From IMG/VR virus record IMGVR_UViG_3300026478_000318, positions 1-52,330 of that record: a stretch of 52,330 bases of DNA. One strand, 5' to 3'. Below are positions 1,916-29,628 of the stretch, one piece after another (position 1 is the stretch's first letter; the number at the start of each line of letters is the position of its first letter). Below the pieces are notes generated by a model, which was given only the letters and a program-made list of their open reading frames with translations, was not told the origin of the DNA and made no database searches. The DNA comes from a virus. A program made the translations under genes and the position numbers.

Positions 1916-2121
1916 TATTCAAAATCCATTTGCTTTTCAAACATTGCGTTAATGCCATCTTCTATTTCATCTAATGATCTTGTGTCATGATTTTTACATA
2001 CTGGCCTTATGGCATAACCATCTGCCTCTATGTTAATTGCAAAACCATCGCAATAGTAACACTTAGACATAATTTCTTTATTTCTTTTTCGTATCATATC
2101 TAGGTATTCTTTGTTATTCAT
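1915..2121 (-). CDS. Small zinc-finger-like protein
   Basis: A 68-residue protein with CYYC near residues 21-24 and a later C-x2-H (CKNH, residues 42-45), which together could bind one zinc. The N-terminus is basic and helical (EYLDMIRKRNKEIM), the C-terminus acidic. Its ATGA overlaps the WhiB stop, so the two are probably translated together. No family is recognised with confidence. A DNA- or protein-binding accessory of WhiB is possible but not shown. Confidence 0.65.
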   Translation of the reverse strand: MNNKEYLDMIRKRNKEIMSKCYYCDGFAINIEADGYAIRPVCKNHDTRSLDEIEDGINAMFEKQMDFE

Positions 2122-2411
2122 TTTGAACCCTCGTCCATTGTTAATCTTCTCCAGGTATTACCCCAGTCAGACTCTGACTTATGGCTATTAAATTCTTTAG
2201 AGACAGTTCCTTCTTCTAAGTATATACCGCCCCAGACCCCATACTCTTTACTTGAAACACCAACAGCAAAGCATGTTTTCATGACAGAACAATTAAAACA
2301 AACAGAATCTATTGCTGGCCTTAATAACTCTTCTTCTTCATATTTATCAAAGAATAAGTTAGTATCATAATCTAAACAAGACGCTTGATCTTTCCATTTA
2401 AGTTTGTGCAT
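2118..2411 (-). CDS. WhiB-family iron-sulfur transcription factor
   Basis: A 97-residue protein with the four WhiB cysteines C12, C38, C41 and C47 (C-x25-C-x2-C-x5-C) and the turn motif GVWGG at 58-62. WhiB proteins bind a [4Fe-4S] cluster and pair with the principal sigma factor; they occur only in Actinobacteria and their phages, so this gene fixes the host phylum. In mycobacteriophage TM4 a WhiB protein alters septation and superinfection. The frame extends to 2462, but that would overlap the upstream gene by 65 bases; the ATG at 2411 starts just before the first conserved Cys. The ribosome site there is weak. The basic C-terminus (SESDWGNTWRRL) could contact DNA. Confidence 0.9.
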   Translation of the reverse strand: MHKLKWKDQASCLDYDTNLFFDKYEEEELLRPAIDSVCFNCSVMKTCFAVGVSSKEYGVWGGIYLEEGTVSKEFNSHKSESDWGNTWRRLTMDEGSK

Positions 2412-2622
2412 ATCCCGATACGAGCCCCTCTGGAATATGCCAGCCATCTCTGTTAGGCTCAAACCTTTTTGTCATATACCAATTACCTTTAAAGTAAATG
2501 CCATACTTAGAAGTCTTAGCCTTGTCTGATTTATATCGATTGACAACTGTCCACCCATCCCAAACCAGACTTCTATTTTTTGCAACGATACTTTCCATCT
2601 CTTCTAGTGTTTTGACTATCAT
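2398..2622 (-). CDS. Hypothetical protein
   Basis: A 74-residue protein (MIVKTLEEMESIVAKNRS...). AGGAGAAAAATG places the start at 2622; an in-frame codon at 2655 would overlap the upstream gene and precede that ribosome site. It is rich in aromatic and basic residues (WDGWTVVNRYKSD, YFKGNWYMTKRFEPN), as in small DNA-binding or RNA-binding beta proteins. No family recognised. It ends 14 bases inside the WhiB gene, so it is in the same operon. Confidence 0.65.
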   Translation of the reverse strand: MIVKTLEEMESIVAKNRSLVWDGWTVVNRYKSDKAKTSKYGIYFKGNWYMTKRFEPNRDGWHIPEGLVSGYAQT

Positions 2623-2980: not shown

Positions 2981-3380
2981 TAGAATTCCCTTCTCGTAAT
3001 CTATCTATAATAAACATCATCTTATCCAATTGTACCTTATTCATGACCATTGTGTCAACTCTTCTGGTAGTATCTTTGTCAACACCATCGCCCATAACGT
3101 CTGCGGTATAAAAAATATTATCCTTGATCCAGTAGGCTTGATCTTCCATAACTATGACCCTGATATTTGTCTTAGAACTGTGTATCTTGGACTGAGTTTG
3201 TTTTTCTGGCTTTGTAAGTTTATCATGGAGATTAAGCACGTGATTTATTTGATGCTTATGGCTTTGGCTAGGCTTAAACTGCCTTGTCCTAAATTGACCA
3301 AAAATATTAAAGGTTTCTTGTAGTTTTGTTATTCCATAAAATAACAAAAGTGCAGACAGATAACCTATTAAATATTTCAT
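2955..3380 (-). CDS. Membrane-anchored hypothetical protein
   Basis: A 141-residue protein with one N-terminal transmembrane helix (YLIGYLSALLLFYGI, residues 3-17), a basic polar linker (residues 30-75, many Lys, Gln, His) and a C-terminal domain of about 60 residues (VIVMEDQAYWIKDNIFYTA onward). The linker looks disordered. GGTGAT precedes the ATG at 3380 and a TATAAT lies at 3402-3397. No family is recognised; I recall the C-terminal part from other actinophages. It would place a small soluble domain at the membrane. Confidence 0.65.
   Translation of the reverse strand: MKYLIGYLSALLLFYGITKLQETFNIFGQFRTRQFKPSQSHKHQINHVLNLHDKLTKPEKQTQSKIHSSKTNIRVIVMEDQAYWIKDNIFYTADVMGDGVDKDTTRRVDTMVMNKVQLDKMMFIIDRLREGNSNDSGSTRN
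3029..3058 (-). promoter_or_regulatory. Possible internal promoter
   Basis: TTGACA (3058-3053) and TACAAT (3034-3029) with an 18-base spacer lie inside the gene at 2955-3380 and about 48 bases before the ATG at 2980. Location in coding sequence and the weaker -10 make this only a candidate for separate expression of the genes leading to WhiB. Confidence 0.35.
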
Positions 3381-5174: not shown

Positions 5175-6014
5175 TTATCTAATAAAAGGATATGTTAATA
5201 TTTTACTAAATTGAGAAATAAAATCTAGTACATTTGTTGTTTTGTTTTTAACATATAAAGACGCTGCAACAACAGTTGATAAAGAAGTGCCAGTAATTGT
5301 GGCTGTTGTACCGTTGTATCGAACAATATCCATACTTGCAACTGACAATACGTCTAGCCCTGGACCGCTATTTGTTAGTGGCGCAATAATTCCACTAGGT
5401 GTTGCTGCTCCTACACCAATAGCCCCATTAACACAAGACGGAAATCCAACTAGATCCTTCTTACCATCATTTCCAGTTGCAATAAATGATGGAATGTTTT
5501 GATTATTTAGTGATGTAATTCCATTAATTACAACAGAATCTGTTGTACATGACTTTAGATTATTAGCAGAAATACTTGACTGACTAATAGAAACTGCGTC
5601 TACACTAAATCGTGAAGCATTTTTTGACACCCAATCAATAGCCTGAGATAGAGCCTGTGGAGTGTTAGTTGAATTACCAGCATCAGTAATATTTGCAATT
5701 CGTACAAAAACAACCTTCATATTTGGATTAGTTTGTAATGCTGCACTTACCATATGATGTCCATGATATGTTGCATTAAGCATAGAGGTTGGCCAAAGAT
5801 TTGAATTTGCTGATCCTGAACCTTCCATAAAATTTGTTTTATTTGGACAAGATCTATTCTGCGTAAAGCATGCTTCATAGATTACAGAAGTAACCTTCTT
5901 TGAATCAATTGCTGTGTCAATAATAGCAATGACTGGCTCATCTGCTGCTTGTGCAACCTGAAGTGGTGCAAAAATAGTTGTAATTGATAGTAGTGTTATT
6001 AGTAGTTTTTTCAT
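5175..6014 (-). CDS. Secreted subtilisin-like serine protease (S8)
   Basis: A 279-residue protein. Residues 1-23 are a classical signal peptide (MKKLLITLLSITTIFAPLQV, cut near AQA-AD). The S8 catalytic set follows: Asp33 in IIDTAID, His84 in HGHHMVSA (compare HGTHVAG), Asn182 in ATGND, Ser244 in TGTSLS. Paired cysteines fit an exported protein. There is no inhibitory prodomain between signal and catalytic domain, and the C-terminal part after Ser244 is short. AAAGGA precedes the ATG at 6014; the frame further upstream overlaps the next gene and hides the signal peptide. Being exported, it should cut proteins outside the membrane: host surface proteins, or neighbours encoded here. Target unknown. 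Confidence 0.85.
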   Translation of the reverse strand: MKKLLITLLSITTIFAPLQVAQAADEPVIAIIDTAIDSKKVTSVIYEACFTQNRSCPNKTNFMEGSGSANSNLWPTSMLNATYHGHHMVSAALQTNPNMKVVFVRIANITDAGNSTNTPQALSQAIDWVSKNASRFSVDAVSISQSSISANNLKSCTTDSVVINGITSLNNQNIPSFIATGNDGKKDLVGFPSCVNGAIGVGAATPSGIIAPLTNSGPGLDVLSVASMDIVRYNGTTATITGTSLSTVVAASLYVKNKTTNVLDFISQFSKILTYPFIR

Positions 6015-6028
6015 TTTTTTCCTTTTTG

Positions 6029-6232
6029 TTAGATGAATATTCTTACAACGTGTTCGCATGGGTCGCCTCCTGCTTCCCATTCTTCTATTTCTTCTTCACT
6101 CATATACTCATAGCCACCGTCATGTGTGTGACAATAAGGATCGCTGATCCAGCCTCTTTCGATACCGTTTTGCAACCAAATACCAAACTCTTGCTCCTCT
6201 GGAGACAAGTCTTCCATACCCATATGATTCAT
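6029..6232 (-). CDS. Acidic conserved hypothetical protein, leaderless start
   Basis: A 67-residue acidic protein. Core features are FGIWLQNGIERGWISDPYC, a GG turn, an acidic helix (MSEEEIEEWEAGGDP) and a C-x2-H end (CEHVVRIF). I recall this arrangement from actinophages, without function. Two cysteines and several histidines could bind a metal. The ATG at 6232 lies six bases after a TATACT -10 box and has no ribosome binding site, so it is likely read from a leaderless mRNA. Confidence 0.7.
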   Translation of the reverse strand: MNHMGMEDLSPEEQEFGIWLQNGIERGWISDPYCHTHDGGYEYMSEEEIEEWEAGGDPCEHVVRIFI

Positions 6233-6238
6233 ATCTTT

Positions 6239-6267
6239 AGTATACCCTTAAATACTTACAATGTCAA
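6239..6267 (-). promoter_or_regulatory. Consensus sigma-70 promoter giving a leaderless mRNA
   Basis: TTGACA (6267-6262), 17 bases, TATACT (6244-6239), then six bases to the ATG at 6232. The -35 box lies in the last codons of the proteasome-like gene. The expected transcription start coincides with the ATG. Confidence 0.75.
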
Positions 6268-6778
6268 TTGGCCCCATACAGGACGGGCTAAATTTAATTG
6301 CTGCACTTACAGCAGAATGCACACGATTTCTTGCATTTTTTTGTTTATCAGTTGCATACAAAGCGCCATAGGCATACTCTGCTCCTGACCCCATTGCAAG
6401 ATACGGTAGTGTATATTTAGATAAAGACATATCAGCAGAACTATGCTCATAGATTTCTCCACGAACAGCGATGATCAAGCCAAGGTCTCCATCTTTAGAT
6501 GTGTCTACCCAGAACTCATTATAAAAATCTCTTAGTTCTTTGACAAATTTAGTTTGCATAAACTTATCTGTATCTTTAATAGTAGGTGCAGTTGGTTTAA
6601 AGTTATAACGGATTCTTTCTCCGTCCATGGCTCCTGCATATCCAATTAGATATGGACCAATCTTCCAGACTTTGGGTGCATCAAGTGCTAAGATCGTGCC
6701 ATCGTCAGAGGCACCACGATCTCCAGCCATCCAGATTTTACTTGTTGAACTATCACGAACAACAGCAATACAGGTCAT
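6248..6778 (-). CDS. Proteasome-like Ntn hydrolase (20S beta / HslV fold)
   Basis: A 176-residue protein. After removal of Met1, Thr2 would be the N-terminal nucleophile (MTCIAVVRD). MAGDRG supplies Asp20 and DAPKVWKIG supplies Lys36, matching the Thr1/Asp17/Lys33 triad of HslV and proteasome beta subunits with a two-residue shift. GSGAEYAYGALYA at 130-142 matches the family motif GSG..YA..A. The size equals HslV. There is no propeptide. No HslU or other AAA+ partner is in the window, so it may work alone, with a host ATPase, or as an Anbu-like ring. Upstream is a strong promoter with a leader and an AGAGAGG site. It is cytoplasmic by sequence. Confidence 0.8.
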   Translation of the reverse strand: MTCIAVVRDSSTSKIWMAGDRGASDDGTILALDAPKVWKIGPYLIGYAGAMDGERIRYNFKPTAPTIKDTDKFMQTKFVKELRDFYNEFWVDTSKDGDLGLIIAVRGEIYEHSSADMSLSKYTLPYLAMGSGAEYAYGALYATDKQKNARNRVHSAVSAAIKFSPSCMGPIDIVSI

Positions 6779-9198: not shown

Positions 9199-11247
9199 TT
9201 ATAACCTCCTTAGTGACATAACTGAACCAACAATGTTTCCTACCAAAATAACAGGGACAACAACCTCTTGAACTTTCTCTCTTTGGTCATCTGTCATATC
9301 TTTACCCCATTCTGTAGGGTTTAAAACTTTACCTAAATCTATATCTAATAATGTTCCAAGTGGATCTGCTAAAAATGCTTCTGTTTGTACTTCTGTAATA
9401 GCGTCTGCCAGTGTGTATGGCATTGCCGCATCCCCTGCTTCTTTTGCTCTATCTTTAAACTCAACAAATGCGGTAGCAATGGCAGGATCAGATTTCATAG
9501 CCTCAGCAATCTTTTCAACTTCAGATGATTTAATACCTAATTCCTGTGCAACTTCAGCCTTAGCCTCTGTAGTTAAAGCCTTAAGAGTTTGGCTAACTGC
9601 TGCTACTTGTTCTGGTGTTAGTGTAACTAATTTATTATCTTTACTTGTAAGGTTAGCAATAACTCCAGATAAATCTTCTGTTGTTCCCGTTCCTTTTTCA
9701 GGTACCAATGCTGCCAATTCTTCATCTTTAATTACTGGTTTTTCTTCAGGTGCAGGCGTTGGTTCTACCGTTGGTTCTGGTCCAGGTGTTGGTTCAGGTG
9801 TAGGTTCTTCTGTTGGTTCAGCAGTAGGCTCTGTAGTAGGTTCAGGTTCTGGATCTTTTGTTGGCTCTACAGTTGGTTCAGGTGTAGGTTCTGAACTTGG
9901 TTCTGGTGTAGGATCAATAGTAGGCTCAACCGAAGGCTCTGGACTTGGCTCTGGGCTTGACTCTGGTGTTGCAATTATTGTAGGCTCTGGCGTTGGTTGA
10001 TTTGCTGCAGCGTTGGCTGCTGCTTGAGCAATAGCAATTTGTATTTCTCTTTCTTTCTGTTCTTCATAATAATCCCAGGCATCCTGTATTGCATTATTCA
10101 TATCAGTTATTGATTGATTATATGCTGAGATTGTATTATTTTTTGCAGATAAAGAAGTTGTGAGGTTTTCTTCTGCAGTTGTTAGGTTTTGCTCTGCAGT
10201 TGTTAGGTTTTGTTGTAATGTTGTGAGGTTTTGAACTGCTTGATTATACGCAGATAATTTATTATTATAAAGATTTTGTGCTGAGTCTCTTGTTGCAAGT
10301 GCTTCGTTATAAGCATCTATTTGCGACTGATTTGCAACTGCACCTGAAGAGAATGTGTTTAAATTACAACTAAAGCCTACTCCCCATCCACCAGTATAAT
10401 CACATCCAGCACCAGTCCAACCTCCAGGAATTGCCCATCCAAGATGATAAGATCCTGGACCTCCACCGTTATACCACCATATTTCTACATCTAAAGTTTT
10501 ATCTTGACTAACATCATATACTGGAGAATATGCACTCCATCTAACTCCTTGCTCTACCCAGTTGTTAATAGCAAGTTGTCCATTAACGTACATTTTAAAA
10601 CCATCATCTGTATAACCTGCAAAATAAGTTGATGTCCAATGTGAAGGAACTGTAATAGTTCCAGTAAACTTTACAACAATATTTTCATATCTGTTTCCAC
10701 AAACTGGCAATTGCATTGAATTTGAATTCCATGTACCAGAACAAATCACTGAGTCTGGTGTTGCTATGCTTGGCCATGTCCTTACCAAATTATAAACAGT
10801 ATATGAAAGCCCCTGACCACTGGCTGACTGCATATTGGCCTGTGTTGTCTGTACATTTAGGTTTGCCACATCAAGGGCATCCTGAGCATTATTTTTATCT
10901 GTTAGGGCTATAGCAACTGTAAGTGTTTGTGCATCTACTGCTGACTGGGCTAAGTTCTTTTCTTGAACTGCCGTGGATTTTGCAGTAACCGCATCATCAT
11001 ATGCAAGCAAGGCGCTGTCCATATTTTGTTTTGCTTGAACAGCATAATTATATTTATTTTCTGCTATACCTATAAGATTATTGAATTCGTCTTTATAGTT
11101 AAGATCCTCTACGCTGTCTTTAAGGTCTTCTAGTTCTTGGGCAGCAACTACTAAGGGGTCATCAGAATGAGCGTCTGTAGGGGCTATTAGAAGCCAACTG
11201 AAGGCTAAGGTTATTGATGCTAGTAGTCTGGTTAATTTGTTAATGAT
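9199..11247 (-). CDS. Secreted PA14-domain, Pro-rich, C-terminally anchored surface protein; non-ATG start
   Basis: The open frame extends upstream of the first ATG-type codon (11022) and there encodes a signal peptide (INKLTRLLASITLAFSWLL). No ATG, GTG or TTG lies in frame before it; GGAGG lies eight bases before an ATC (11247) and 11 before an ATT (11244), so I place a rare start there (682 residues). Order: signal peptide; helical coiled coil; PA14-like beta domain (FAGYTDDGFKMYVNGQ, then AINNW) of about 150 residues with four Cys; heptad coiled coil (QNLTTAEQNLTTAEENL); about 85 residues of PEP/TPEPS repeats; a helical domain; a C-terminal apolar helix (VVVPVILVGNIVGSVMSL) and RRL. PA14 domains bind sugars. 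It should sit on the host surface. A sequencing error at the start codon is the alternative. Confidence 0.75.
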   Translation of the reverse strand: MINKLTRLLASITLAFSWLLIAPTDAHSDDPLVVAAQELEDLKDSVEDLNYKDEFNNLIGIAENKYNYAVQAKQNMDSALLAYDDAVTAKSTAVQEKNLAQSAVDAQTLTVAIALTDKNNAQDALDVANLNVQTTQANMQSASGQGLSYTVYNLVRTWPSIATPDSVICSGTWNSNSMQLPVCGNRYENIVVKFTGTITVPSHWTSTYFAGYTDDGFKMYVNGQLAINNWVEQGVRWSAYSPVYDVSQDKTLDVEIWWYNGGGPGSYHLGWAIPGGWTGAGCDYTGGWGVGFSCNLNTFSSGAVANQSQIDAYNEALATRDSAQNLYNNKLSAYNQAVQNLTTLQQNLTTAEQNLTTAEENLTTSLSAKNNTISAYNQSITDMNNAIQDAWDYYEEQKEREIQIAIAQAAANAAANQPTPEPTIIATPESSPEPSPEPSVEPTIDPTPEPSSEPTPEPTVEPTKDPEPEPTTEPTAEPTEEPTPEPTPGPEPTVEPTPAPEEKPVIKDEELAALVPEKGTGTTEDLSGVIANLTSKDNKLVTLTPEQVAAVSQTLKALTTEAKAEVAQELGIKSSEVEKIAEAMKSDPAIATAFVEFKDRAKEAGDAAMPYTLADAITEVQTEAFLADPLGTLLDIDLGKVLNPTEWGKDMTDDQREKVQEVVVPVILVGNIVGSVMSLRRL
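9749..10000 (-). repeat. Degenerate Pro-Thr-Glu coding repeat
   Basis: An imperfect tandem repeat encoding PEPTPEPS-type units within the PA14 protein. On the plus strand it reads as repeated GGTTCTGG/GTAGG units. Such repeats form stiff extended spacers in wall-crossing surface proteins and can change length by slippage. Confidence 0.75.
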
Positions 11248-11288: not shown

Positions 11289-11894
11289 TTAAATAAAGTT
11301 TGTATTGAATTGCAAGGAGGCTCGTGGAGCAGTCACTTCTATTTGATGATACATGCCTTTAGGAAAGAACACAAAGTCACCTGGATTCATTTCAATAACT
11401 TCTTTATATGTGGGTGGTTCTGGTTCCATTAATGAGGTGTCTGAAAATACCCATGTGGTTTGACCTTGGCACTGTAATGAAAACGCTGCCCAATCATCTT
11501 TATGGCTTAAATTTTTATATGGACCTACACATATTTTAGGGCCAGATAATGCGAGATTAAATGTTGTTTTTCTATTAATAGTTTCAATCATATCAAAGAT
11601 GATCGGAAAATGCTTTTCAAACCTTTCATATTTATCATCTGCACCGCCTAAAGCATTGATATATAAATCAGCACCAACTATTACTGTTCCATTTAATGTT
11701 TCTTTATTTCGAGCAACTTCTTGGGCTAGTGCCATATTAGTAGGCTCTTGCCATTCTTGATAAATACAGTTTAAAAAATCAAACCAAGACGGCAGGTGCT
11801 CTTCGTTTATAAAGTTTTTAAATATATATGGTTTAAAGTTTTTGTTAGAATCTCTAACAATATGTAAAAAATCTTTTAAGTCGTAATTTATCAT
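11289..11894 (-). CDS. Cupin / JmjC-like oxygenase, leaderless start
   Basis: A 201-residue protein. A double-stranded beta helix is suggested by LSHKDDWAAFSLQCQGQTTW (His131, Asp133 or Asp134) and DFVFFPKGMYHQIEV (His183), an H-x-D...H iron site as in JmjC/cupin hydroxylases. GPKICVGPY precedes it. It may be a protein or small-molecule hydroxylase. It lies directly after the terminator of the surface-protein gene; its ATG at 11894 is six bases after TGGTAAAAT and lacks a ribosome site. It is a second oxygenase-like gene in the same accessory block as the one at 6836-7432, but not its close relative by motif. Confidence 0.7.
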   Translation of the reverse strand: MINYDLKDFLHIVRDSNKNFKPYIFKNFINEEHLPSWFDFLNCIYQEWQEPTNMALAQEVARNKETLNGTVIVGADLYINALGGADDKYERFEKHFPIIFDMIETINRKTTFNLALSGPKICVGPYKNLSHKDDWAAFSLQCQGQTTWVFSDTSLMEPEPPTYKEVIEMNPGDFVFFPKGMYHQIEVTAPRASLQFNTNFI

Positions 11895-11912: not shown

Positions 11913-11941
11913 AAAAAGGGGAGCAGGTTTCCCCACTCCCC
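11913..11941 (-). terminator. Rho-independent terminator after the surface-protein gene
   Basis: GGGGAG (11941-11936) pairs with CTCCCC (11923-11918). The inner bases can extend the stem to about ten pairs with a GAAA-type loop. A run of five T (11917-11913) follows on the minus strand. It lies 16 bases after the stop of the gene at 11957. Confidence 0.85.
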
Positions 11942-11956
11942 CAGTTGTTGGATTGA

Positions 11957-13093
11957 CTACTTAAGTAAAGTAACCTTAGCCTTTGGATTCTTTGCATTCC
12001 ACTTTACAGCGAGTGCATTGAATGCCTTCTTGATTGCAGCAAGAGTAGCAGCATTATCTGCCTTCAACTTAGCAATTTCTGCATCCTTAGCAGCAAGCGC
12101 TGCATTAGTAGCAAGTGTTGCAGTTACAGAATCAGCCTTTACCTTAGCAAGTTCAGCCTTAACTGCAACTAGTTCTGTATCGGAAGCCAACTTTGCATCA
12201 GCAAGAGCCTTTGCAGAAGCAACCTTCTCAGCAGCAAGTGCAGCATCTGCTACAGCCTTAGCAGCAACTGCTGCATCTGCAATAGCCTTCTGTGCTGCAA
12301 GTTCAGACAATAGATCACGAACTGAGATTGTCTTAACTACGCTTGAGGTTACTGTGTTGAATCCTGTAACAACAGAAGCAATATCAGATGAGTTAGTAAC
12401 AGATACAACAAGTGTTGAAGAACCTGTTGTTGGAAGCGTTACCTTAAAATCTGCCTGACCAAAGTTGGTTAGGGTTGCACCAGTTGTAGCAGTAGTTGTA
12501 TCAAGAGTTCCACCAACAACGAGTGCTGTTAGACCCTTACCTGATACCTTGTTACCAAATACGTCTGTTGCGGTTACTGTTGCAGTTACAACGCTTGAAG
12601 TTGTTCCAGCATCAGCAGATGAAAGTGCAAGAGTATTAATCTTTCCTGCAGTTCCCTGTACATAATAAGTTAGTGTTGTTCCACCGTTTGTAATAGCAAC
12701 TGTACCAATTGCTGTTGTCTTTGTGTAGACATAAAATGTTGCGGTTGTTCCTGTTCCAGTTGCAATTGTCAAAGATGATGATCCTGATGATGCAGATACT
12801 GGTGCAGCAGATGTGTGCAATGCAGAAACAATTGTTGCGTTAGTTGCTGATACTGAAACGTTTGTTCCTGTATCAACTGTTGCAACAAACTTTAGTGCAT
12901 CAGCAGCATCGATTGTGTTGTCTGCTGGGACTGGCAATGAAGCAGGTGTAGCAATTGCAGATGCTGTTGTATTAGCAGTTCCGTCAAGTGATACAGCGAC
13001 TGTCATTACGGCTGCGCTTGCAGGCGAAGCCACGATTGTTGCGGTAGTCATGGCTGCAACCACGGCTAGAGCGATTTTCTTAAATGAATTCAT
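11957..13093 (-). CDS. Secreted Ig-like/coiled-coil surface protein resembling host surface-layer proteins
   Basis: A 378-residue protein. Residues 1-27 are a signal peptide (MNSFKKIALAVVAAMTTATI, cut after SPASA-A). Residues 28-240 are rich in Thr, Ser, Val, Ala and Gly in beta patterns typical of Ig-like modules. Residues 255-350 form an Ala-rich coiled coil (AAKAVADAALAAEK and similar). The end is basic (WNAKNPKAKVTLLK). No cysteine is seen. AGGAGA just before the second ATG (13093) sets the start. I recall abundant surface proteins with this plan in acI Actinobacteria; likely captured from a host. It has its own consensus-like promoter and a strong terminator, so high separate expression is likely. 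Role may be coat mimicry, superinfection block or virion decoration. Confidence 0.75.
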   Translation of the reverse strand: MNSFKKIALAVVAAMTTATIVASPASAAVMTVAVSLDGTANTTASAIATPASLPVPADNTIDAADALKFVATVDTGTNVSVSATNATIVSALHTSAAPVSASSGSSSLTIATGTGTTATFYVYTKTTAIGTVAITNGGTTLTYYVQGTAGKINTLALSSADAGTTSSVVTATVTATDVFGNKVSGKGLTALVVGGTLDTTTATTGATLTNFGQADFKVTLPTTGSSTLVVSVTNSSDIASVVTGFNTVTSSVVKTISVRDLLSELAAQKAIADAAVAAKAVADAALAAEKVASAKALADAKLASDTELVAVKAELAKVKADSVTATLATNAALAAKDAEIAKLKADNAATLAAIKKAFNALAVKWNAKNPKAKVTLLK

Positions 13094-13114
13094 TATTCTC
13101 CTCGTATTCATTGT

Positions 13115-14890
13115 TTATATTGTTTTTATTCTATCCAAGAAGTTGTTTATTTCTTCTATTTGGCTAGGTTTATATTGTATCACATTAGCAGGTAATGTGT
13201 CAATTTGTTTAGGTCTATCCCTGAAAGTATGGACCTCTACCTCAAGGTTTTGATTTTTAGGGGTATGAGAAATGGCTCCAAAGATGGATCCACATACGGC
13301 ATCCGCCAAGTCTTTAGATTTTTTGCGTGGGTGATCTACCTTGTCATTTTTCATAATTTTAAGTTCTGTCAATTCTTCAAATAAAAGTTCGATTGCTGGC
13401 ATTATAAGTCTTTCCTCATAAACCAACATTGCCATATCCTCATAATGTTTCTTGGCTACTGAGACTGTCTCCGTTCTCATTCCCACAGCCTGCAATTCAT
13501 TTTGAATATCAAATGATTGCCAACGGTCAAAGGTTACTAGCCCTATGTTAAATCCAAGCCTTCTAAGATTTTGAATCCATTGCTTTACCTCTGATAAATT
13601 AACTGGACCCTCTACCTTTGGTTCCCACCATGCTACTGCATCTACTACAACGATAGGTGATATTTGTTCGTAATCTTTGATTACCTGAACATTAACCCAC
13701 TTCTCAACATGTGCAATTGCAACAGCACACTTGTCATGTTTTTGTGCAAGGTCAGCATGAACAAAATATATTTTTTCTGGGTCAGGTACAAAATTTTCTT
13801 CAAATCTTCTAAAGGTATCTAAGGGATTTCTAATACTCATACATGATCTTACTTTATCTGCCTGCTTAAAAAATGCATCTGATGCAAATGTTGGTACACA
13901 AGCAAAACGCATCATGGCGTCGCCAAGGTCTGTCATAAAAGCAATCTTAAAATCATCAATCTTTCTAGTAGGATTTACTTCCCATGTTGGTCGTTTAATT
14001 GCAAAAACTCCAGGATACTTGTAAGATTTTATGTGGTCTTCATCCCAAGAAATATCAAACCAGTTATCTTTGTCATCTTCTGGCAACAATGGATTAACAA
14101 TAAACCTATGTGTCTTATTTACTACTTCTTTTTCAGCAATTACTGCGTCATACCGCTCAGAAATAAAGTCACCGTTATAGCGTGGGAAAGAAAGAAGAAC
14201 TACTTTACCAAGATCTGGGAAACGAGAATCTACAGAACCACGGAAGGCTTTATAGATGTTATCAGCAGTCTTTCCTTGCTCATTACCTGTTGCTACCTCT
14301 GATGCAAAGCCAGAGATCTCATCAAGAACTGCAAGCAAAAGGTTCAATCCCTCGTGAGATTCTCTTTCAGAGTGACCAGAGTAAACTGTAATTGATTTAT
14401 CAAAACCAATTGAGTCTACCTTTGCTTCATACTTTCCAGCAAACCATGGAGACTTTTCAATCTTAGTTTTGAATCCTTTAAAGAAAACATTCTTGGCCTG
14501 TTGAGCGTTAATAGCAACGTTAATAAGGTCTATGGCATCGCCACTGGGCTTACCGAAATATCTTGCTGGGTCCTTAAGGCATAATAACTTATACACAATG
14601 TAAGCACAAGCAACAGTAGAAGTAAAATCTTTTCCACTACCCTTGCCAAGTTGGAGGATAATTTCATTTTTTGTATATTTTTCAAAATATCTTGCTCCTT
14701 CTTCTTCACCCATAATCTGCTGAAGATCTTCTTTACGATATATTTGACTCATAGCCTCTACAATGTCATATTGAATTGTAGAAAGTCCTGGCTGTCCTAA
14801 ATAGTCTGGAGATTCAACAAATGTTTTAGCATCTACAGGTGTTTCTTCAAAATGATTATCTTTTAATGCCTCAAGAAAATCATCAAACAT
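13115..14890 (-). CDS. terL: Terminase large subunit
   Basis: A 591-residue protein. The ATPase part has a Walker A-like loop LGKGSGKDFTS (about residues 81-91) and Walker B LLLAVLDEISGF. The nuclease part has FVHADLAQKHD, an inner acidic position in TFDRWQSFD, and SKDLADAVCGS near the end, the RNase H-like acidic residues. It cuts concatemeric DNA and powers packaging through the portal. The ATG at 14890 overlaps the small terminase stop; a TTG at 14899 in the same frame is possible. It is 35 kb from the portal gene, unlike the usual terminase-portal pairing. Confidence 0.9.
   Translation of the reverse strand: MFDDFLEALKDNHFEETPVDAKTFVESPDYLGQPGLSTIQYDIVEAMSQIYRKEDLQQIMGEEEGARYFEKYTKNEIILQLGKGSGKDFTSTVACAYIVYKLLCLKDPARYFGKPSGDAIDLINVAINAQQAKNVFFKGFKTKIEKSPWFAGKYEAKVDSIGFDKSITVYSGHSERESHEGLNLLLAVLDEISGFASEVATGNEQGKTADNIYKAFRGSVDSRFPDLGKVVLLSFPRYNGDFISERYDAVIAEKEVVNKTHRFIVNPLLPEDDKDNWFDISWDEDHIKSYKYPGVFAIKRPTWEVNPTRKIDDFKIAFMTDLGDAMMRFACVPTFASDAFFKQADKVRSCMSIRNPLDTFRRFEENFVPDPEKIYFVHADLAQKHDKCAVAIAHVEKWVNVQVIKDYEQISPIVVVDAVAWWEPKVEGPVNLSEVKQWIQNLRRLGFNIGLVTFDRWQSFDIQNELQAVGMRTETVSVAKKHYEDMAMLVYEERLIMPAIELLFEELTELKIMKNDKVDHPRKKSKDLADAVCGSIFGAISHTPKNQNLEVEVHTFRDRPKQIDTLPANVIQYKPSQIEEINNFLDRIKTI
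13174..13203 (-). promoter_or_regulatory. Promoter for the surface-protein gene
   Basis: TTGACA (13203-13198), 18 bases, TACAAT (13179-13174), with TGA before the -10 (extended -10). It lies inside the last codons of the large terminase gene and gives a leader of about 75 bases. Confidence 0.7.
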
Positions 14891-15416
14891 CGTGGACAAT
14901 TGTTATCACTTCATCTCTTTTTGAGATTTCAGACAGTCGCCTCATAATCTCATCTCTAATTTCAGGATACTCTGATGCAATATCACGAAGAATAGCCATA
15001 AGAACTTCCTGTTTCTTTTCAATCTGAATCATCTCTTCAGCAAGTTCTTTATTTTCTAACAAGCCTGCTTTTTGAAGCATATCAATTCTTTTAGACTCAA
15101 TATCCATAACCAACTTAATGGCTTGAGTTTTTGCACCTAGGTTATTTGTTAAAGAAGCCTCATCGATAACTTCATATGATTTTGAAATTAATTTATTATA
15201 GTGAGTGTCTGCAACAGCAAGTGCTTCTTTGGCACGTGCACGGATAGCGTCGTTGGCAGAAGCCATGACCTTCCATTCATTAATATGCTGTACAACACGA
15301 TTTCTAGGAATAGATAAATCTTTAGAAATTTTTGTTGCATCATTACCCTTAAGATATTCGCTGACAACAACATTTATCTCATCAAGGTGCTTGACTAAAT
15401 CTTCTTCAGTTGACAA
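14883..15416 (-). CDS. terS: Terminase small subunit (putative)
   Basis: A 177-residue helical protein just upstream of the large subunit with an eight-base overlap. Residues 25-50 form a helix-turn-helix (DATKISKDLSIPRNRVVQHI), followed by long helices for oligomer formation. This is the layout of small terminases that recognise the packaging site. AGGAGG at 15431-15426 is nine bases from a TTG codon at 15416, which is therefore chosen over a GTG at 15437 that lies before the ribosome site. A different DNA-binding protein is possible but position argues for TerS. Confidence 0.75.
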   Translation of the reverse strand: MSTEEDLVKHLDEINVVVSEYLKGNDATKISKDLSIPRNRVVQHINEWKVMASANDAIRARAKEALAVADTHYNKLISKSYEVIDEASLTNNLGAKTQAIKLVMDIESKRIDMLQKAGLLENKELAEEMIQIEKKQEVLMAILRDIASEYPEIRDEIMRRLSEISKRDEVITIVHDV

Positions 15417-28074: not shown

Positions 28075-28507
28075 GACTGCCCTCATTTTCAAAAAGTATT
28101 GCGTCTGCAAACCTTTCTAGCGGGATAGTCTTTACTTGAACTGCAATATGTGCATACTCTTTATCTGCTGAATATACGATGGAATAGTTTGTTTGATTTG
28201 TTTTACTATAATACTGCCACCCAGCATTATTCCACTTAATATATATGTAATACTCTTCTATGTTTGTTTGTGGTTGCCACGCCAAATTAATAACTCTATT
28301 TGAAGTATCAATAATCATGCTATTTAAAATTTCACTTGGCGTATCTTCTGCTATAATTTTATAAGTTGGGGACCAGTGTGATGTTCTATTTTTGTCTTCA
28401 GAAATAAATCTATACTTTAAAACATACTGTCTATTGTCTCCAAAAAATCCAGGCAGTTTAGATTTTGGAATAATAATTTTTTTAATACCACGATCTGGGG
28501 TAGGCAT
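28067..28507 (-). CDS. Fibronectin type III-like tail protein (putative)
   Basis: A 146-residue protein. YVLKYRFISEDKNRTSHWSP, then VINLAWQPQTNIEEYYIYIKWN and YAHIAVQVKTIP form the strand pattern of a fibronectin type III-like module. Such domains are common in phage tail appendages. It lies in the run of tail fibre genes; TAATG overlap at its start. Specific role unknown. Confidence 0.65.
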   Translation of the reverse strand: MPTPDRGIKKIIIPKSKLPGFFGDNRQYVLKYRFISEDKNRTSHWSPTYKIIAEDTPSEILNSMIIDTSNRVINLAWQPQTNIEEYYIYIKWNNAGWQYYSKTNQTNYSIVYSADKEYAHIAVQVKTIPLERFADAILFENEGSLI

Positions 28508-29628
28508 TATTGCACATCCATAGCAAATCTAAACTCAATATAGTTGGTTGTATTTGCTGCCTTAACAATAGTTTCAGCATTAGTATTTTTTAGTACTGTA
28601 TATCCAGTCAAACCGTATACTGGATTTGTTGTTGAAATATTCTCAAAACGAATTGCATCTAGACCAATATAAAAGTCATCTGAAGGTACTGAAGCATTAA
28701 TCACCGTTGAATATATTTTTACAATACTAACATTGTTCCATGTAAAGCCTGTGCTCTTGTGTAACTCTTGTAATTCTTTTGTTACTATATAATATCTGTT
28801 ATTGGCAAAATCATAATCATCAGCAGACATGATTACTTCAAATCTTGCCCACTCTCCAGAGCCTGGCTGATCGCTTTCTGCAAACTCTAATAATATTCTG
28901 ACTTCATCTGGAACAATAGAAGGGTCTGGATCTTTATTGATAATACTAAATCCTAATTTAATTTGATCTGTAGGGGCATTTTTGTTAAAATCTAAACCAG
29001 TTCCAAGTAAGTGGATATGATTTGTATTTGTACCAATTTCTAACTGATTAGTTCCAGAAACAGTTAGCGAGGATGTATCTCCTCTCATCATAACGATGTT
29101 ATTAAAAAATCTAGCACGTTCATATCTAGCAATGCGTTCAGCATTTGTAAATAATCTATTATCAGAGTTTGTTTGGAAGACAAGATCTGTTTGGTTAATC
29201 ACGTTATCATTTGCTACGCCGTCTAGCGGTTCATAAATTACTGGAAGCGCTACTGCTGTTTCTGCTGTATGATATTCCCAGTTTTCATTTACAGTAAAAG
29301 CAAACAAAGAACGACTGTCATATGCTCCAGCAGATGGGTTTGCACCAGCAGAGAAAACTCCTACTTCAGAAATCTCATATCTTTCATCTGTTGGTAGTTC
29401 GGCTGTTAAAACAATTTTATTGGTGCCGTCGTCATTTACATAGCCTCGTGATGTAATTGGAACACGAAACATTTCAAAGTCTAATGCCTTTATGTCAGAG
29501 TAGTCTCCAAATGCCTGATTGGTTCCAAGTGGTTTGGCACCGCAGCCCACAGCAATGTATGATGCATAAGCAGGTGCCTGACCTATGAGATATTTTGCTA
29601 AGATATTTTTGCCTGTATTTGTTATCAT
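28507..29628 (-). CDS. Tail fibre/collar-type protein
   Basis: A 373-residue protein starting MITNTGKNILAKYLIGQAPA, with VGCGAKPL nearby, an N-terminus often seen in phage fibre proteins attached to the baseplate or tip (I recall it from actinophages). The middle and end are beta-rich, including a carbohydrate-binding-like segment (WARFEVIMSADDYDFANNRY). Its ATGA overlaps the gene upstream. Probable receptor-binding apparatus. Confidence 0.7.
   Translation of the reverse strand: MITNTGKNILAKYLIGQAPAYASYIAVGCGAKPLGTNQAFGDYSDIKALDFEMFRVPITSRGYVNDDGTNKIVLTAELPTDERYEISEVGVFSAGANPSAGAYDSRSLFAFTVNENWEYHTAETAVALPVIYEPLDGVANDNVINQTDLVFQTNSDNRLFTNAERIARYERARFFNNIVMMRGDTSSLTVSGTNQLEIGTNTNHIHLLGTGLDFNKNAPTDQIKLGFSIINKDPDPSIVPDEVRILLEFAESDQPGSGEWARFEVIMSADDYDFANNRYYIVTKELQELHKSTGFTWNNVSIVKIYSTVINASVPSDDFYIGLDAIRFENISTTNPVYGLTGYTVLKNTNAETIVKAANTTNYIEFRFAMDVQ

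Follow-up and report, generated by a model that had tools for sequence, protein, structure and literature searches.

The analyzed DNA, hereafter the window, is a linear contig of 52,330 nt (IMG/VR record IMGVR_UViG_3300026478_000318) and probably represents an incomplete phage genome; related contigs are up to 119 kb long. A gene for a secreted Ig-like surface protein of 378 aa was found at positions 11,957–13,093 (minus strand), a feature defined by its sequence and by a family present in at least 558 viral contigs. It lies 21 bases behind the gene for the terminase large subunit, terL (13,115–14,899, minus strand), which was recognized by homology and by comparison of TerL contigs and is the constant upstream neighbor in this clade. 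On the downstream side, domain searches revealed an optional cupin/JmjC-type oxygenase gene (11,289–11,894, minus strand), located between the surface gene and a gene for a second secreted surface protein (9,199–11,244, minus strand). The latter is predicted by domain search and signal pattern to contain a PA14 domain, a Pro-rich spacer, and a C-terminal hydrophobic segment with RR. None of the start codons ATG, GTG, and TTG occurs in its frame where the signal peptide begins to be encoded, and ATT at 11,244 behind GGAGG is the probable start; the related contigs L024 and L026 show a Leu-type start codon there. Together with a 2OG-Fe(II) oxygenase-type gene (PF13640; 6,836–7,432, minus strand), the cupin/JmjC-type gene is located near this Pro-rich protein, and the two oxygenases could modify it.

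The surface gene is next to the PA14 protein gene and the endolysin region, and in contigs L004 and L005, a CHAP gene is directly beside it. The head-tail block occupies 28–52 kb of the window, so the surface gene is outside it, beside terL and the lysis region. Two other genes of the window were assigned by eye and had no Pfam matches. One of them (5,175–6,014, minus strand) encodes a signal-peptide protein with subtilisin-like motifs (IIDTAID, HGHH, and GTSLS), relatives of which occur near the surface-protein gene in a second clade described below. The other (6,248–6,778, minus strand) resembles an Ntn-hydrolase/proteasome-type subunit (MTCIAVVRDSSTSKIWMAGDRGAS) and has relatives in both clades.

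Phage and host

Terminase, portal, protease, and capsid genes are present in the window. Sequence comparison shows the phage, presumably from freshwater, to be related to Stanwilliamsviridae: its TerL is 54%–57% identical to that of the Streptomyces phages Gilson and Yaboi, and the gene order DnaE-RecA-RuvC-TerL is common to both. Freshwater is also the presumed origin of the related contigs, and the phage is probably of a lytic type. Both features of actinophages that were considered, a WhiB gene (2,118–2,462, minus strand) and an actinophage TerL, were found, thus supporting an actinobacterial host; acI in particular may be the host, although WhiB and TerL indicate actinobacteria in general and do not single out acI. 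The first phages isolated on Nanopelagicales, with genomes of about 39 kb (PMC10202952), seem to be another group, as judged by their description rather than by sequence.

Unlike in the window, TerL of Stanwilliamsviridae is followed by HNH endonuclease, hypothetical, and tRNA genes. No relative of the 378-aa protein was found in these Streptomyces phages, and none behind TerL; therefore, the protein is not generally needed by such phages.

The surface protein and its parts

The open reading frame counted from its first ATG extends over 11,957–13,111 (minus strand) and encodes 384 aa, the ATG at 13,111 being an in-frame alternative start. Since the Shine-Dalgarno sequence AGGAG is located at 13,098–13,102 (minus strand), the ATG at 13,093 and the 378-aa product are favored; an AAGGAG-type site recurs in relatives. 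The predicted Sec signal peptide, MNSFKKIALAVVAAMTTATIVASPASA, corresponds to positions 13,013–13,093 (minus strand), with predicted cleavage before AVMT (ASA/A), and leaves a mature protein of about 350 aa. In a rule-based test, the Sec pattern (a positive n-region, a hydrophobic core, and an AxA motif) was found in 176 of 178 distinct family members, the two exceptions being truncated at the 5′ end, and it is kept although ectodomain identity across members drops to 32%–38%.

The signal peptide is followed by about 240 residues in which Thr, Ser, Ala, and Val are abundant, and then by an Ala-rich helix and a basic tail. The modeled ectodomain comprises Ig-like domain 1 (12,641–13,012, minus strand), a beta sandwich conserved within allele groups, and Ig-like domain 2 (12,317–12,640, minus strand), which is Big_1-like by profile and model and, according to allele comparison, is swapped independently of domain 1. 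An Ala-rich helical coil of variable length (12,032–12,316, minus strand) leads to a conserved C-terminal tail (11,960–12,031, minus strand) with the consensus FNALAxKWNxxNPKAKVxLVK. The mean net charge is +7 over the last 24 residues and slightly negative over the rest of the mature sequence. The signal peptide and the tail remain similar across family members; because the 163 sequences compared had been selected by the tail motif, conservation of the tail is overstated, and a different tail occurs in some members (e.g., L013). Cysteine is absent from 162 of these 163 mature sequences. Neither a lipobox nor a transmembrane anchor was found in the surface protein, so retention on the cell would depend on the tail alone, a possible anchor to the wall or a polymer.

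Fold prediction

An AlphaFold run with 17 close relatives gave a pLDDT of only 52.6, and an ectodomain alignment of 55 diverse relatives (A2) was used instead. The resulting model, with a mean pLDDT of 93.9 and a pTM of 0.85, shows a pair of beta sandwiches and, after them, a helix. The best Foldseek matches in the PDB were intimin (D0-D1 and D00-D0), invasin, InvD/InvE, and SbsC, with TM scores not exceeding 0.48 and E-values down to 1.9e-7 for intimin and invasin. A profile search of A2 found FdeC (4e9l) at E = 2e-4. The Big_1 profile of Pfam matched one of the 55 relatives (5e-7), and the window protein itself had no Pfam match of any kind. Ig-like display domains are supported by this model, whereas membership in the invasin family is not. 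In both the phage protein and the Big_1 domains of invasin, intimin, FdeC, InvD, and InvE, tandem Ig-like sandwiches would be displayed extracellularly. Invasin and intimin, however, have an outer-membrane barrel, while the host of the phage is of the Gram-positive type. No Pfam domain for such an N-terminal barrel was found in the phage protein, and there is no space for it besides the signal peptide, the two sandwiches, and the coil. The S-layer protein SbsC belongs to a secreted and very abundant class and also contains Ig-like domains, but the similarity of fold is only generic (TM score up to 0.38). The search for S-layer anchors in the phage protein revealed neither SLH nor any other recognized type, although the conserved cationic tail could serve this purpose.

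The original prediction of a 378-aa protein with a signal peptide, Ig-like modules, and an Ala-rich coil, made from the DNA of the window alone, is borne out by the reading frame, the near-universal Sec pattern, and the AlphaFold and Foldseek results; the signal-peptide pattern and the Ig-like model also support its view of a secreted, surface-type protein.

Transcription unit

A sigma-70-type promoter, TTGACA-N18-TACAAT with TG before the −10 element, is located within the 3′ end of terL (13,174–13,203, minus strand), and an intrinsic terminator (11,917–11,942, minus strand), with a stem of 11 pairs, of which 7 are GC, followed by a T-run, lies immediately past the stop codon of the surface gene. 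Within the 7 kb scanned, this site came closest to the promoter consensus (11 of 12 positions). Since this region contained 17 promoter-like sites compared to 21 expected from shuffled sequences, a single match to the consensus could be due to chance, and conservation was therefore examined at the nucleotide level. A search of 3.0 Mb of related loci for the pattern TTGAC-N19-TACA.T gave 126 occurrences that precede family members by the distance expected, compared to 19 at other places. Among 65 distinct upstream sequences, the terL codons over the −10 element were GTG in 63 and CTG in 2, and ATA in all 65. Both GTG and ATA are minority codons in the window, where GTG accounts for about 7% of the Val codons and ATA for about 17% of the Ile codons. 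The TerL peptide encoded over the promoter occurs in 41 forms (e.g., IDTLPANVIQY, FDLESRNVIQY, LDIGKDNVIQF, and VDKQPDGVIQF). As the promoter bases are fixed while the peptide varies, the bases rather than the amino acids are conserved. Of 47 distinct downstream regions, 45 have a terminator behind the stop codon, and its stems still pair although their sequences differ.

The exact form of the promoter is absent in some relatives, such as L004, L029, and L034, and several of the relatives lacking it carry a weaker TGCACA-17-TAGAAT-like site upstream. A second TTGACA-18-TACAAT site in the window is present at 3,029–3,058 (minus strand), upstream of a gene at 2,630–2,980 and of whiB, and L070 and L071 contain a comparable one. 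Comparison of related loci thus supports a conserved autonomous transcription unit. The TTGACA-18-TACAAT promoter and the strong terminator noted in the original prediction were corroborated by conservation in the upstream and downstream regions compared. Its description of an autonomous cassette set apart from other genes holds for autonomy but not for the upstream side, where the gene follows closely behind terL and takes its promoter from within it.

Codon usage and predicted expression

With a codon-adaptation index of 0.733, the surface gene ranked highest among the 52 genes of the 52,330-nt fragment that were scored, compared with 0.706 for the capsid gene; the reference consisted of the capsid and putative tail-tube genes, each of which was scored against the other alone. 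Lysine is encoded in the surface gene by AAG 26 times and by AAA once. Across 100 distinct loci, the AAG fraction of lysine codons averaged 0.94 in the surface gene versus 0.48 in the adjacent terL and was higher in the surface gene in every locus. Since the lysine measure is independent of amino acid composition, we read this bias as selection for very high translation.

Distribution of the family

Relatives of the surface protein were found in at least 558 IMG/VR contigs, with ectodomain identities down to 32%–38%. The nearest relatives were checked for phage tail or head proteins and proved instead to be secreted copies in related phages, mostly at the same locus. Searches of Pfam, PHROGs, and INPHARED gave no match to the surface protein, and a search of NCBIfam with its ectodomain gave no noteworthy one; one relative matched an unnamed PHROG at E = 0.005. 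No report of the protein was found in the literature, and the family appears to be undescribed in the resources searched.

All 50 TerL contigs that extend 1.4 kb or more past TerL carry the surface gene directly behind it, which makes it a core gene of the clade. This same-place presence rules out an accessory "moron" or a recently inserted cassette. One copy per genome was found in the 16 genomes searched. In a second clade, with TerL only 54%–61% identical, the surface gene occupies another locus away from TerL, usually behind relatives of the window genes at 1,046–1,531 and 6,029–6,232. Eighteen of 80 TerL contigs (L354–L417) end downstream of TerL within 300 bp past terL, at the start of the surface gene, which suggests that allele mosaics break assemblies there.

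Allele exchange

Ectodomain identity only weakly followed that of TerL (rho 0.30 for 80 loci, and 0.10–0.35 over all gene comparisons), whereas TerS closely tracked TerL on the same loci (rho 0.80). The neighboring genes hol69 and CHAP were also weakly correlated with TerL (rho 0.24 and 0.32), so the whole region may recombine. In L004, the ectodomain is 91%–95% identical to that of window-type phages, while TerL is only 53%–56% identical; at the DNA level, identities to the window are 84.7% for the ectodomain and 61.0% for terL. The situation is reversed in L310, with identities of 93%–97% for TerL and 36%–39% for the ectodomain (85.6% and 54.7% to the window in DNA). In some pairs, a TerL identity of 54% goes with an ectodomain identity of 93%–95%. 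A chimeric assembly is an unlikely source of the mismatch in L004, since L005, obtained from another metagenome, has the same arrangement. In 174 of 4,950 pairs, domain 1 was at least 90% identical and domain 2 no more than 60% identical. These sequence comparisons indicate that ectodomain alleles are exchanged among phage lineages and that domains 1 and 2 recombine separately.

The dN/dS ratio was 0.23 for the ectodomain and 0.086 for TerL; substitution within alleles is therefore constrained, and pervasive positive selection was rejected as a simple account. An exclusion role would predict covariation of the ectodomain with the receptor-binding protein; with a candidate for the latter, encoded at 28,507–29,628, the ectodomain may covary weakly beyond TerL (partial rho 0.29, permutation p 0.05, for 20 genomes, 3 of which had doubtful starts). 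Extra inserted segments are present in this candidate protein in L334, L335, and L336 (frames of 465–475 aa).

Possible role

The reading we prefer, with a probability of roughly 0.75, is that the surface protein is secreted and acts at the host surface. We infer secretion itself, attachment to the wall, and an exclusion function. The protein would be produced in great abundance under the control of its own promoter and terminator and exported from the infected cell by the Sec system. The coil and the cationic tail would keep it attached to the cell wall or embedded therein, and the two Ig-like domains would face outward. There it could occupy or hide surface structures used by related phages, leading to superinfection exclusion, and/or prevent new phage particles from adhering to the dying host and its debris. 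Masking of the cell against other phages is plausible, and we give superinfection exclusion or receptor masking, as the mechanism, a little under an even chance.

A known superinfection-exclusion protein of this kind is Llp of phage T5, a small lipoprotein of the periplasm; it jams FhuA and is proposed to prevent re-infection and the loss of progeny on debris (PMC9586334). Llp and the surface protein are both phage-made envelope proteins, export of the surface protein to the envelope being predicted from sequence only. In contrast to Llp, the surface protein is large, has Ig-like domains and no lipobox, and its exclusion role is putative. Exchange of ectodomains at a fixed core locus may occur because phages co-infect and compete, which would fit exclusion systems such as that of T5. 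A more elaborate form of this idea, which we put forward only tentatively, is a phage-specific "identity coat," in which the export signal and the anchor are constant, the swappable Ig-like modules decide which phages can co-infect, and alleles are traded among co-circulating phages.

Alternatively, the protein, released at lysis or exported, could decorate virions or debris, coating phage particles with Ig-like domains. A core gene with codon adaptation at least equal to that of the capsid gene would suit a virion component, and Big-1, tail, and other virion proteins are among the nearest viral fold matches. We nevertheless consider such a role unlikely, since essentially all members have the signal-peptide pattern and secretion before lysis would hinder building the protein into cytoplasmic capsids. 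In addition, the gene is located away from the head-tail block, and sequence searches matched neither a named phage family nor any record of INPHARED.

A role in envelope remodeling or in the timing of lysis, with the protein stabilizing or loosening the wall together with the PA14 protein, the holin-like proteins, and the CHAP endolysin, appears similarly improbable. The position between terL and the lysis genes, adjacent to CHAP in L004 and L005, agrees with it, as do the universal presence in the clade and the cationic tail, which would suit binding to anionic polymers of the wall. A housekeeping lysis factor, however, would not be expected to show strong swapping of alleles and independent exchange of domains, the second clade carries the gene elsewhere, away from TerL, and no catalytic domain is present.

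Still less probable is an S-layer-like coat made by the phage to shield its host cell against grazers or environmental influences. The very high predicted expression and the occurrence of SbsC among the fold matches speak for it, but the S-layer matches are generic Ig folds, known S-layer anchors are absent, and allele exchange among phages suggests a phage–phage conflict. Capture of a host surface protein, mimicking an abundant acI protein, is very improbable: the overall plan resembles that of secreted actinobacterial proteins, as stated in the original prediction, which called the protein host-like, but GTDB, scanned twice (84,980 genomes of bacteria and archaea) by a method that detects only shared short exact peptides, revealed no relative, versus the at least 558 viral contigs found in the same way, and the greatest diversity found is carried by phages. 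The term host-like is thus not supported.

Proteins by which phages alter the host surface are a known kind, to which action of the surface protein at the host surface would add a family that appears to be new, and a large one, without a profile in the copies of Pfam, PHROGs, or NCBIfam searched. Freshwater actinobacteria are among the commonest bacteria of lakes, and phage competition and evasion in them are almost uncharted. A core, codon-optimized secreted protein with exchangeable Ig-like modules offers a testable handle on superinfection control and surface remodeling.
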